From contig JAOAIX010000001.1 of the NCBI GenBank assembly GCA_026414485.1, forward strand, positions 151,502 through 215,501: 64,000 nt of DNA. The letters run 5' to 3'. Positions 36,680 through 43,974 of this stretch are shown in pieces. The translations under genes were made by a program, and so were the position numbers. The notes beneath the pieces were generated by a model. That model was not told where the DNA came from. It saw nothing but the letters and a program-made list of their open reading frames with translations, and ran no database searches. Within the stretch, counting starts at the first letter, position 1. Each line of letters starts with the position of its first letter. This DNA is from Candidatus Bathyarchaeota archaeon. GTDB taxonomy: Archaea; Thermoproteota; Bathyarchaeia; Bathyarchaeales; Bathycorpusculaceae.

Positions 36680-36978
36680 GCGTACCCCGCCAGGGAGATT
36701 CACTTTAAAATGCAAAATGTTATATACAAAATCCACCACAAGGCTATTGCGGAAAATTTAGAGAGAGAAGAATGGATCCATAGGGACAAATCGTTGTTTG
36801 CTACCACTTTTATTTCCTTTTAAAAATTAAAGTAGGGATTGGCATTGACTTTTATTTTTAGATGTGTCCTTTCATTGGTTTCTCCTCAGCTATTTCTACT
36901 TTAAGTTGGATTAGGCAAAAACTTATATGGCGTGATGCGCTGTTGGTTGATTACCGAAAAATCGGAGAGAAAACAAAC
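36680..36978. other. Intergenic region before the surface propeller protein
   Basis: 299 bases. CTTATATGG at 36922-36930 is a likely TATA box, predicting a transcript start near 36953 and a 26-base leader with CGGAGAGA before the ATG at 36979. A 36-codon frame starting at 36711 is not supported by a motif. Confidence 0.45.
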
Positions 36979-39654
36979 ATGAAACCTCATTTAAAACAAG
37001 TGTTAACTCTAATTGGGCTTCTTTTGATTCTGACGCCTCTTTTTGCAGGCTTTTTACAGTTCACTGCGGCTCAGTACGTTGACCGTGGTCAAATCCAAAC
37101 TTTCGCCTACATCAGCGCTATGCCAAACCCTGTTGGAGTTGGTCAGCCGGTAATAGTCACATTCCGTGTTGATCAACCTTTAGCCGGAGCAACTGTGAGG
37201 TCAGGGCTACCTAATGGCACTTCCGTGACAATTACCCGACCAGACGGCACAACAGAAACCAAACAGAACTTGTTCATGGACTCAACCAGCTCAGGCTGGT
37301 TCCTATATACTCCAACCCAAACTGGAACCTACTACTTCCAGATGTTCTTCCCACAGCAAGGGCCATACGTGAGTACAGTTGACGGCGGAGGCTTCGGCTT
37401 GCCCCCAGGCATATATACCTATCTAGCTTCTCAGAGTGCAAAGATTTCCTTAACTGTTCAAGCGGATCCAATTCAGCCCTATGACAGGTCTCCACCGTTG
37501 CCCACCGGCTACTGGACCCGCCCCATTAACGCTGAAAACAAGAATTGGTGGCAAGTTGCAGACAACTGGCTAATGCGCGGCTACGACAAAGTCGGCAGGT
37601 CCTTTGCAGGTACACCCGCGTTTGCACCATACACTTCAGCTCCTGACAGTGCCCACGTACTTTGGGTTAAGCCCATAGTGCCTGGTGGAATGGTCGGTGG
37701 CCGATTCGGCGACACAGTTTACTACCATGGTATATCCTATGAGCAGTTCTTTGAGGCTATGATTCTGCAAGGCACCGTTTTCTTCACGGAGCATGGCTTA
37801 ACAGGGACTGCGCAAACCTATGGTACACGCTTCATGGATCTCTACACAGGAAAAGATTACCCGTTAATGTACATGAATAACACCAATATTCAGTTTGCGA
37901 CGACTCTGAACTATGACTCGCCCAACGAACATGGTGTACTACCTTACCTTGTTGTTTCTAGAAGTGCCGGAGGTCGAACTTATTGGGACTTCTATGAAAT
38001 GCTCCCAGATATGCAGCAGAATCCAAGATTGCAATTCAGCGTTGACATGACAGGTCTAACATCAGGCTACATAACATTTGGCTCCAACGGTGAAATCTTA
38101 ATCTACAACATCGCCGGCTCAGCAAACAACCGATACATGACCCTGTTCAATATGAGTCGCGCCGTCCTTGGTGTGCGCTACGCAGGAATTGACGTCTGGA
38201 GCCCCAGCGGCACCATAAACGCTTCACGCAGACACAACGAGGCACCCAACCCAGCAACCAACGAAGAAGTAGCGTATTGGGAATCTGTCACTAACTCGCC
38301 ATTTGTGGGCATTGAATGGAACGTTTCCCTATCACCAATATCCACTATGCCTAATGGTCTGCTTAGTGTTCGAGAAGTTAACTTCGAAGAGGGTTTGTTG
38401 TTAGCTACTCAAAGAGACTCAAGCAAACTGCCCAACGTCTACATGGATGCTGGCTACGACATCGGGTCAATGAAACGCGGCTTCGACGGAAGATACCCAC
38501 GCACCCTCAGTCACCTGTGGGCTGCAAACCGCACAATGATAAACGATATCCACGACCGTATCAGCAACCACATACGCCACGGCAAATACATCCGCTATGA
38601 CGAAGGTCAAGAAGTTTACTACTGCTTCGATATGCGTACAGGTCAACTCATCTGGAAGACTCAACCACTAAATAACGCATGGGCGTTATTCACCAGAAAC
38701 TACGAAATTGCATACGGAAAACTTGTAACTTCTGGCTTTGATGGCATTGTACGTTGTTACGATATGAATAACGGTAACATACTCTGGACTTACGACAAAG
38801 GAAGCGCAGGCTTTGAAAACGCCTACGGCACATACCCAGAATACGCAGGCTTTACCATCGCGGATGGCGTAGTCTACACAACCGCTGACGAGCACTCTTC
38901 AGACGGTATCCTGTGGCGAGGTGCTCAACTATGGGCAATTGACATAAACACTGGAAAACTACTCTGGAAAGTCAACGGCATGTACCGCCACCCAGTCATC
39001 GCTGACGGAGTCCTGATTGCGCTCAACAGTTACGATGGTCAAGTCTACGCTTTCGGTAAAGGTCCCAGCAAAACCACTGTTTCAGCACCCCAAACCGCAG
39101 TGCCTAAAGGTACCGCTGTGATGATCACAGGCACAGTCACTGACCAAACTCCCGCACTGAAAGACACGCCAGCCATATGTGACGACAACATGAGCGCATG
39201 GATGGAATATATGTTTATGCAGAAAGTCTGCCCGGCCAACATCAAAGGTGTGCCAGTGCACGTAACTGCTATTGACCCCAACGGCAACTTCCAAGACATT
39301 GGCACAGTTACAAGCGACGCAGCAGGCAACTTCGCTATAGCGTGGACCCCACCAGTGGAAGGTACATACCAAGTCACTGCAACCTTTGAAGGCTCCAAAT
39401 CCTACGGTGGCTCATACTCAACAACCTACTTCTTAGTATGTCCAGCTGCCCCAGTTGCTTCGCCTACTGTTGCTCCAACAGTTGCTCCTACTGTGGTTCC
39501 TTCTGTTGCTCCGTCTCCGTCTGTTTCGCCTAGTGTGGTTCCTGAGCCTGAGTCTGCTGCGCCTGGCGTTGACGTGTACGTTGTTGCCGCCGCTGTTGTA
39601 GTGGTTATAGTTGTGGTTGCGGTTGCAGCTGTTTTCCTGCGGAAACGCAAGTAA
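36979..39654 (+). CDS. Large cell-surface protein with PQQ-like propeller repeats and C-terminal membrane anchor
   Basis: 891 residues. Signal peptide (about 1-31, ending FTAAQ), an Ig-like domain (about 40-155, PVGVGQPVIVTFRVD), a long central region rich in Trp, Tyr and Asn, PQQ-like beta-propeller strands with the repeated pattern D..TG.L.W (YCFDMRTGQLIWKT near 549, CYDMNNGNILWTYD near 593, WAIDINTGKLLWKV near 651), a second Ig-like domain (about 700-830), a Val/Ala/Pro/Thr-Ser spacer with VAPT repeats, a transmembrane helix and a KRK stop. The longer frame from 36862 lacks a signal peptide. An abundant surface or S-layer-associated protein is plausible; bound cofactor and activity are unknown. 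Confidence 0.8.
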   Translation: MKPHLKQVLTLIGLLLILTPLFAGFLQFTAAQYVDRGQIQTFAYISAMPNPVGVGQPVIVTFRVDQPLAGATVRSGLPNGTSVTITRPDGTTETKQNLFMDSTSSGWFLYTPTQTGTYYFQMFFPQQGPYVSTVDGGGFGLPPGIYTYLASQSAKISLTVQADPIQPYDRSPPLPTGYWTRPINAENKNWWQVADNWLMRGYDKVGRSFAGTPAFAPYTSAPDSAHVLWVKPIVPGGMVGGRFGDTVYYHGISYEQFFEAMILQGTVFFTEHGLTGTAQTYGTRFMDLYTGKDYPLMYMNNTNIQFATTLNYDSPNEHGVLPYLVVSRSAGGRTYWDFYEMLPDMQQNPRLQFSVDMTGLTSGYITFGSNGEILIYNIAGSANNRYMTLFNMSRAVLGVRYAGIDVWSPSGTINASRRHNEAPNPATNEEVAYWESVTNSPFVGIEWNVSLSPISTMPNGLLSVREVNFEEGLLLATQRDSSKLPNVYMDAGYDIGSMKRGFDGRYPRTLSHLWAANRTMINDIHDRISNHIRHGKYIRYDEGQEVYYCFDMRTGQLIWKTQPLNNAWALFTRNYEIAYGKLVTSGFDGIVRCYDMNNGNILWTYDKGSAGFENAYGTYPEYAGFTIADGVVYTTADEHSSDGILWRGAQLWAIDINTGKLLWKVNGMYRHPVIADGVLIALNSYDGQVYAFGKGPSKTTVSAPQTAVPKGTAVMITGTVTDQTPALKDTPAICDDNMSAWMEYMFMQKVCPANIKGVPVHVTAIDPNGNFQDIGTVTSDAAGNFAIAWTPPVEGTYQVTATFEGSKSYGGSYSTTYFLVCPAAPVASPTVAPTVAPTVVPSVAPSPSVSPSVVPEPESAAPGVDVYVVAAAVVVVIVVVAVAAVFLRKRK

Positions 39655-42195: not shown

Positions 42196-43974
42196 ATGAA
42201 GCGAATTACAGTGGTCTTTGCCCTAATACTTCTTCTGTCAGCTGTATCTTTAACTTTAATCTCTAACATCCACCTAACTAAAGCCCAAACAACATACTAC
42301 ACAATAAATCACGTAGACCACAAAGTAGAAGTCCTCTATTCAGGTCACCTAGTTATAACAGACACCCTCCAACTTTCTGGTCAAATACCCAGCACCCTTC
42401 AATTGGGCTTCTCAACAAAATATGCCTCACAAGTCCTCAAAGCTACAGCACACGACAGCAACAATCAAACAATCCCCCTAGTTTTAGGCATGCAAGGACA
42501 AGGCGTAACCACTTTCTACGGTGCAAGCTTAACTATTCCACAAGAAGCAACCCAAACAATAACCACAATTTTCACTTTAACAAACAACCTGCTAACCCCA
42601 ACTGTAAATGGCTTTAGTCTAGATTTTCCAGCCTACCCCACTTTAACCGCAACTGCACCACAAGTAACAACAACACTTGACCTCCCATTTGGCTCAGTTA
42701 ACGTAAAAATCGAAAAACCTGATGGTACAACAAACACAACTAGTTACACCACAAGCAACCTACCCGCCTACACTACAATGTCTGCAACCGCCACTTTTTC
42801 CAGTGTCTATGGCTATATCCAAAAAGTTGCTATACCCAACTTAAACAGGCAACTCAGCATCATGCCCTCAGGAGAGGTATCGTGCATCGATACTTACAAG
42901 ATAGTTAACACTGCAAGTAGCAGTGTAAGCTCCTTCAAACTTAACATCTCTTTTGACGCAAAGAACGTTGTGGGCAAAGACCAACTTGGTAGAACCCTGA
43001 CAGTGGAAATCCAAGACAGCAACGTTGCACGTGCCGCAAACGTTAGCCTTATCTTGCCAGTTAACACAGGCGAATCTGCAGTGATAACACTTGAATACAA
43101 ACTCCCACGCGTTACACAGCAAGCAGGACAATTCATTTTAAATCTGGACTCGTTTCCTTACCTTGACTATTACGTTGAAAAAGCCACCGTAACTGTTATG
43201 CCTCCAGAAGGCGCACAAATAGTAAGCCCCAAACTCACAAATGTTAACTCTTCCACAGATCTCTCTCGCAACGTTTTCCAAGAAAGTTTAACAATCAGCA
43301 GAGAAGGAATCAGCTACGTGGACAGCTTGCTCCCTTCGGAAGACGTTACACAAATAACCTTCACCTACAACCCACTCTGGGTTTCCTTCCGTCCTAGTAT
43401 CTGGATGTGGACCGTTGCAATAGTAGGCAGCATACTAATCGCAATCTACAAACGCCCCCGAAAAGTTTCCGTTAAAACCGCGTCTACCGTAACAACAGCA
43501 CCCAAAACTGTGTCTACTCCTGTTTCTAAACCTACATCTTCAACACCTAAACCCGAAGCTTCAATTAGCCGCGAACAAATCAAAGCATTCACCGATGCCT
43601 ATGAAGAAAAAATCCGTGTAAAAGCTGAAATTGCCACTCTAGACGACAAAGCGCAGCGCGGAAGAATCCCCAGACAAAAATACAAAGCCAAACGCAAAAA
43701 ACTAGAGCTACGCCTCAACAACCTAAACCAAACAATAACTAACATCCGAGCATACATGCGAAATGTAACCGGTAACTACGCCGAAATAAATCACCAACTC
43801 GAAGTTGCAGAACTCGAACTTGCAGAGGTTGAAAAACTAATCAAAGCCCTTCAAACCCGACAAGACATAGGCGAACTCTCATTGGAAGACTACCGAAGAC
43901 AACTTGAGGACCTAGAGCGCAGAAAAACCAAAACCGAAGCTACAATCAACGGGCTTCTGCTGAGACTCCATTGA
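42196..43974 (+). CDS. Single-pass membrane protein resembling ribophorin I (OST1)
   Basis: 592 residues. Signal peptide about 1-30; extracytoplasmic beta-rich region about 31-395; one transmembrane helix about 401-418 (SIWMWTVAIVGSILIAIYKR); a Thr/Ser/Pro/Lys linker 420-455; and a cytosolic helical/coiled-coil tail 458-592. From memory, several stretches align in order with eukaryotic ribophorin I: FPAYPTL, LPAY, NRQLSIMPSGEVSCIDTY, VTVMPPEGAQI and DVTQITFTYN just before the membrane, and a tail ending GELSLEDYRRQL...LRLH. Ribophorin I is a non-catalytic subunit of oligosaccharyltransferase. This assignment is inference; the safe description is a secreted beta-sandwich protein with a cytosolic coiled coil. 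GAGGA precedes the ATG. Confidence 0.55.
   Translation: MKRITVVFALILLLSAVSLTLISNIHLTKAQTTYYTINHVDHKVEVLYSGHLVITDTLQLSGQIPSTLQLGFSTKYASQVLKATAHDSNNQTIPLVLGMQGQGVTTFYGASLTIPQEATQTITTIFTLTNNLLTPTVNGFSLDFPAYPTLTATAPQVTTTLDLPFGSVNVKIEKPDGTTNTTSYTTSNLPAYTTMSATATFSSVYGYIQKVAIPNLNRQLSIMPSGEVSCIDTYKIVNTASSSVSSFKLNISFDAKNVVGKDQLGRTLTVEIQDSNVARAANVSLILPVNTGESAVITLEYKLPRVTQQAGQFILNLDSFPYLDYYVEKATVTVMPPEGAQIVSPKLTNVNSSTDLSRNVFQESLTISREGISYVDSLLPSEDVTQITFTYNPLWVSFRPSIWMWTVAIVGSILIAIYKRPRKVSVKTASTVTTAPKTVSTPVSKPTSSTPKPEASISREQIKAFTDAYEEKIRVKAEIATLDDKAQRGRIPRQKYKAKRKKLELRLNNLNQTITNIRAYMRNVTGNYAEINHQLEVAELELAEVEKLIKALQTRQDIGELSLEDYRRQLEDLERRKTKTEATINGLLLRLH

Follow-up and report, generated by a model that had tools for sequence, protein, structure and literature searches.

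A homologue of the oligosaccharyltransferase subunit OST1 (ribophorin I) in an archaeon outside the Asgard group

OST1 (ribophorin I) is a non-catalytic helper subunit of the eukaryotic oligosaccharyltransferase (OST), the enzyme attaching sugars to proteins; in eukaryotes its ectodomain is part of the OST complex and is not what contacts the ribosome. A second subunit, OSTC, docks to Sec61 and supplies the Sec contact in human OST-A. The accessory subunits of OST usually count among the eukaryotic signature proteins that have homologues in Asgards. Archaeal candidates were not found by Lombard in 2016 (PMC4973528), and the Asgard survey of Eme et al. 2023 mentions prokaryotic Ost1 from Asgards only (PMC10307638). 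OST1 and OST3/6 have since been listed for eukaryotes, TACK and Asgard archaea by Carilo et al. 2024 (PMC11417166), in whose account the OST1 tails of human and of the Asgard archaeon MK-D1 bind ribosomes. The protein described here, encoded in a 64,000-nucleotide stretch of genomic DNA from a Candidatus Bathyarchaeota archaeon (the window), extends a distribution of OST1 that is already known, from one sentence of the latter paper, but barely described.

Anatomy of the gene product

The gene lies on the forward strand of the window, from an ATG at position 42196 to a stop codon ending at 43974, and codes for 592 amino acids. In the hydropathy plot the top peak covers residues 4–22 and the next independent one residues 400–419. 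The former coincides with helix 2–23 of the AlphaFold model, which is followed by a low-confidence break at residues 24–32, so that residues 1–30 (42196–42285) are predicted to form a signal peptide, likely cleaved after TKA30. Two beta-sandwich domains make up the ectodomain. Domain 1 (residues 35–205; 42298–42810) was delimited by secondary structure of the model and by structural matching to OST1 chains, while domain 2 (residues 211–392; 42826–43371) gives the strongest sequence match to human OST1 and carries the RQLSIMPSGEV and PEGA motifs common to the human and yeast proteins. A transmembrane helix, supported by both model and hydropathy, spans residues 393–419 (43372–43452). Behind it come a linker predicted to be disordered (residues 420–458; 43453–43569; pLDDT below 50 at 425–453) and a bundle of four helices (residues 459–591; 43570–43968), modelled at 459–487, 493–523, 527–558 and 563–591, the second of which has a net charge of +9. 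Basic residues just after the membrane helix probably mark its cytosolic side, and because of them and of the signal peptide the C terminus is placed in the cytosol. Hydropathy and the model thus agree on a type I topology with a signal peptide, a single transmembrane segment near residue 400 and a cytosolic C terminus, and they return the same parts (signal peptide, beta-rich ectodomain, one membrane helix, helical cytosolic tail) that the sequence-only reading of this DNA had recognised.

That reading had also quoted seven local motifs as falling in the order seen in ribophorin I. All of them are present, at the positions given for them wherever such were given: FPAYPTL at residues 144–150, LPAY at 189–192, NRQLSIMPSGEVSCIDTY at 217–234, VTVMPPEGAQI at 332–342, DVTQITFTYN at 383–392, GELSLEDY at 559–566 and INGLLLRL at 584–591. 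Three similarities also held in computed comparison, namely the PEGA motif (VTVMPPEGA in the window, VKIILPEGA in human, LSVFLPEGA in yeast), NRQLSIMPSGEV with its human counterpart TRVIEVSHWGNI, and the tail motif GELSLEDY, which corresponds to AGKLKKDTY in human and to GKLPSKAAY in MK-D1.

Sequence and fold similarity to OST1

Taken by itself the window sequence made a poor case. It had no Ribophorin_I match in Pfam, single-sequence scans with Pfam and NCBIfam gave coiled-coil noise only, and phmmer detected no more than a weak match (E = 0.0058) to 8whn, the Asgard OST1 tail. For this reason relatives were collected at the level of the class by single-sequence search, and a profile was built from 51 aligned sequences. 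Against the PDB it found human OST1 first (E = 7e-21) and the crystallised tail of Asgard (MK-D1) OST1, 8whn, second (1.9e-15); next came an unrelated chain at 0.16, with nothing lower. Since a helical tail can mislead, the profile was then split into ectodomain and tail parts. With the ectodomain part human OST1 was the sole match at E up to 10 (2.9e-15). With the tail part 8whn scored 2.5e-17 versus 1e-4 for the best generic coiled coil (tropomyosin), a gap of 41 bits, and this specificity rules out the generic coiled coil that had earlier been thought a possible source of the tail match. These highly significant matches of the whole protein and of either part alone bear out the original suggestion that the resemblance to ribophorin I extends over the whole length.

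In the opposite direction, Pfam Ribophorin_I matched the ectodomains of 36 of the 51 relatives at E up to 1 (best 4.3e-15). The curated gathering threshold of this family (PF04597) was exceeded in 89 of the 257 genomes of the class and in none of 14 controls. This, together with the report of OST1 in TACK archaea (PMC11417166), makes outdated the earlier statement that no homologue was known outside Asgard archaea. No member of the window's own genus exceeded the threshold, which was passed by just one of three genomes of the Asgard Prometheoarchaeum, so that the Pfam model is evidently insensitive for archaea.

Asgard sequences were used as a bridge. The OST1 profile (A1) matched 113 of 119 genomes of the Asgard phylum, reaching 2e-79 and covering almost the whole length, including Prometheoarchaeum OST1 at 1e-49 to 1e-55. 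The alignment of these Asgard proteins may be regarded as authentic OST1 because its PDB matches are 8whn (1.2e-59), human OST1 (7.9e-41) and yeast OST1 (1e-19). Aligned by hhalign with the Asgard OST1 profile, the profile of the window group gave E = 1.4e-76 over 540 columns, and even the window sequence alone reached 1.6e-34.

The structure predicted by AlphaFold2 from the alignment of relatives (mean pLDDT 88, pTM 0.64) shows a pair of beta-sandwich domains, a single membrane helix and a tail of four helices. When it was compared with the PDB by Foldseek, human and yeast OST1 came ahead of all other entries, occupying the eight best places (3.2e-24 to 8.8e-16), with inter-alpha-inhibitor ninth (9.6e-8). 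Neither of the outcomes that the sequence-only reading had named as refuting it, lack of a significant profile match and an ectodomain fold unlike that of OST1, came about. Structural identity to the OST1 chains is low (12–13%). The target-normalised TM-score was 0.59–0.64 for four yeast chains and the human OST-B chain 6s7t_E. Over the five chains that lack the tail the rmsd was 5.4–6.5 Å. It exceeded 30 Å over the three human chains of greatest length, presumably owing to another placement of the tail with respect to the ectodomain or to a tail position that the model fixes poorly.

One may ask whether a generic archaeal surface protein, combining beta-sandwich domains with a coiled coil, could resemble OST1 superficially. 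The coiled-coil noise of the single-sequence searches speaks for it, as do the beta domains of M1 peptidases returned by the fold search at about 1e-6. Yet ectodomain and tail match OST1 independently and best, in the fold search OST1 chains lead the family that follows them by 8 to 16 orders of magnitude, and the profile–profile match to Asgard OST1 adds to this, so that we consider such an explanation refuted. Membership of the window protein in the OST1 family is secure.

Distribution, partner subunits and gene context

By single-sequence search an OST1 relative was found in 199 of the 257 genomes of the class. Matches in the wider phylum came from 122 of 299 genomes, patchily distributed and some of them through the tail only; weak matches of 200–290 amino acids confined to the tail should not be taken for OST1, and CdvA-type coiled coils also give weak scores with the tail profile. 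The patchiness might be taken as a sign that OST1 was recently acquired from an Asgard archaeon by horizontal transfer. Against it stand the presence of OST1 in most genomes of the class and the tree, a quick search with SH-aLRT supports only, where a branch has the window group on one side and Asgard sequences on the other (supports 89 and 95), and a recent transfer appears very improbable. Other class members adjoin the window group. Because support is weak for the deeper branches and several members of the phylum are long, no conclusion was drawn on the root.

Variant forms of the gene were encountered as well. Several Asgard genomes contain extra short ORFs (about 340–375 aa), several per genome, which match OST1 domain 2 only (for instance, G565:C82:86295-86690 and 88908-89381; G587:C2), and the Asgard OST1 genes L137, L139 and L147, at about 980–990 aa, carry some 400 additional residues. 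The homologue L121:5893-7179 (+), which belongs to another family of the phylum, stops soon after the transmembrane segment, ending like yeast Ost1 without a four-helix tail, in a basic low-complexity stretch. A 421-residue open frame (L190, G162:C11) matches profile positions 217–578 only; it seems to miss ectodomain domain 1 and may be a truncated or broken gene. Within the same order as the window, contig C1 of genome G181 carries three OST1-like genes, L050, L067 and L068 (574, 695 and 643 aa).

The genome encodes AglB, as a check on the first reading confirmed: there is one STT3/AglB (4e-44), in which both WWDYG and the NNT-x-NAT double sequon are present; a double sequon is described in the Agl24 paper as common to TACK, Asgard and most eukaryotic STT3 (PMC8993221). 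It is adjoined by a glycosyltransferase-4 family gene, probably of the GlcNAc-1-phosphate-transferase type. About 3.4 kb from STT3/AglB a 140-aa OSTC-like membrane protein is encoded (contig C2 of this genome, G000; L103:11986-12405, + strand). The only PDB matches of its family profile are OSTC chains (8e-9 for human OSTC and 7.5e-8), and the four best hits of its fold search are OSTC-type chains of OST/translocon complexes, at a weak E of 0.02–0.06 and with a model pLDDT of 68; as a single sequence it scores 20.8 bits, under the 27-bit cut-off of Pfam OST3_OST6. The family occurs in 229 and STT3 in 226 of the 257 class genomes, and the two genes lie within 10 kb of each other in 59 of the 87 genomes with both positions listed, a linkage that may reflect inherited gene order and is no proof of interaction. 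No description of an OSTC-like partner near AglB was found in the literature search. Co-occurrence at the level of the class says little on function, since OST1, STT3 and the OSTC-like protein are all near-universal there. DAD1/Ost2 was not detected in the genome, and an OST3/6 thioredoxin-like match on contig C22 proved to be an ordinary 107-aa thioredoxin.

The OST1 gene forms no operon with AglB and is surrounded by housekeeping genes. On its own strand it is preceded by uS15 and by a DHH-family and a Pcc1-like gene; downstream, asparagine synthase is encoded convergently. At OST1 loci asparagine synthase, purB, Hel308, a nucleotidyltransferase-like protein and an uncharacterised protein of about 120 aa recur (names partly inferred), as does, in 12 loci and without specificity, a glycosyltransferase-4-like gene. 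Gene neighbourhood was rejected as a clue to OST1 function. Elsewhere in the window, positions 36862–39654 (+) code for a predicted surface protein of 930 aa that has a hydrophobic helix at the C terminus and matches of the PQQ-type beta-propeller and Ig-like kinds.

Proposed role and comparison with known OST subunits

Whole-length homology, the order of parts shared with Asgard and human OST1, and the presence of STT3/AglB and an OSTC-like protein in the genome make it highly probable that the gene is an archaeal OST1 orthologue coding for a non-catalytic OST subunit, with a ribosome- and Sec-linked role suggested by its counterparts. The protein would reside in the cytoplasmic membrane and expose its ectodomain on the outer side, where the latter could pack against STT3/AglB, while the basic cytosolic bundle might dock the translating ribosome. 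N-glycosylation would then take place near the Sec translocon as secreted proteins emerge, and contact with Sec may come from the OSTC-like protein, in the manner of OSTC in human OST-A. A ribosome-coupling function is likely by analogy with the human and MK-D1 proteins; the literature search yielded no biochemical data for a TACK OST1. In genus g4 and part of g5 (including G074–G077) STT3 and the OSTC-like protein are kept and OST1 is not detectable, also by profile search where it was applied, so AglB can do without OST1, which suggests that the latter is an accessory. Genomes of this kind, together with the missing operon, could also be read in favour of an OST1-fold protein that kept its ancestry and works apart from glycosylation, for instance as a ribosome tether for Sec or a surface-protein chaperone. 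AglB and the OSTC-like subunit in the same genome argue against this, as does the conservation of the ectodomain, which is the OST-complex part in eukaryotes, and we consider it unlikely.

The occurrence of OST1 in a non-Asgard archaeon implies that this part of the machinery probably predates the Asgard–eukaryote lineage. With OST1 across the class and an OSTC-like protein linked to AglB, a TACK-like lineage would date at least part of the eukaryotic OST, possibly along with its coupling to the ribosome, to before the Asgard split, and relatives having AglB without OST1 offer natural comparisons. More tentatively, at somewhat less than even chances, one can imagine a three-subunit archaeal OST outside Asgard, composed of STT3/AglB, OST1 for the ribosome contact and the OSTC-like protein for the Sec contact, and ribosome- and translocon-coupled N-glycosylation older than the Asgard–eukaryote lineage.

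Compared with Asgard OST1 (Prometheoarchaeum MK-D1 WP_147663064.1; tail PDB 8WHN) the window protein is alike over the whole length, in the order of its parts, in the four-helix tail and in a size of about 600 aa, but identity is about 19% and it occupies a separate branch of the tree. MK-D1 in addition has TRAP subunits, reported by Carilo et al. from Asgards and eukaryotes only (PMC11417166). With human RPN1 (PDB 6s7o chain E) it shares two beta-sandwich domains, the PEGA motif, the transmembrane helix and the four-helix tail, ribosome-binding in human, at 12–13% identity in the structure alignment, whereas its expected location is the cytoplasmic membrane and not the ER, and its partner subunits are fewer, with no DAD1 detected. 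Yeast Ost1 (PDB 6c26 chain 1) is alike in ectodomain fold and transmembrane helix; its 476-aa chain matches up to the latter only and therefore has no counterpart of the tail. The OSTC-like protein resembles human OSTC/DC2 (PDB 6s7o chain H) in size, in having no thioredoxin domain and in its profile match, although its single sequence stays under the Pfam cut-off and its model is of moderate confidence.
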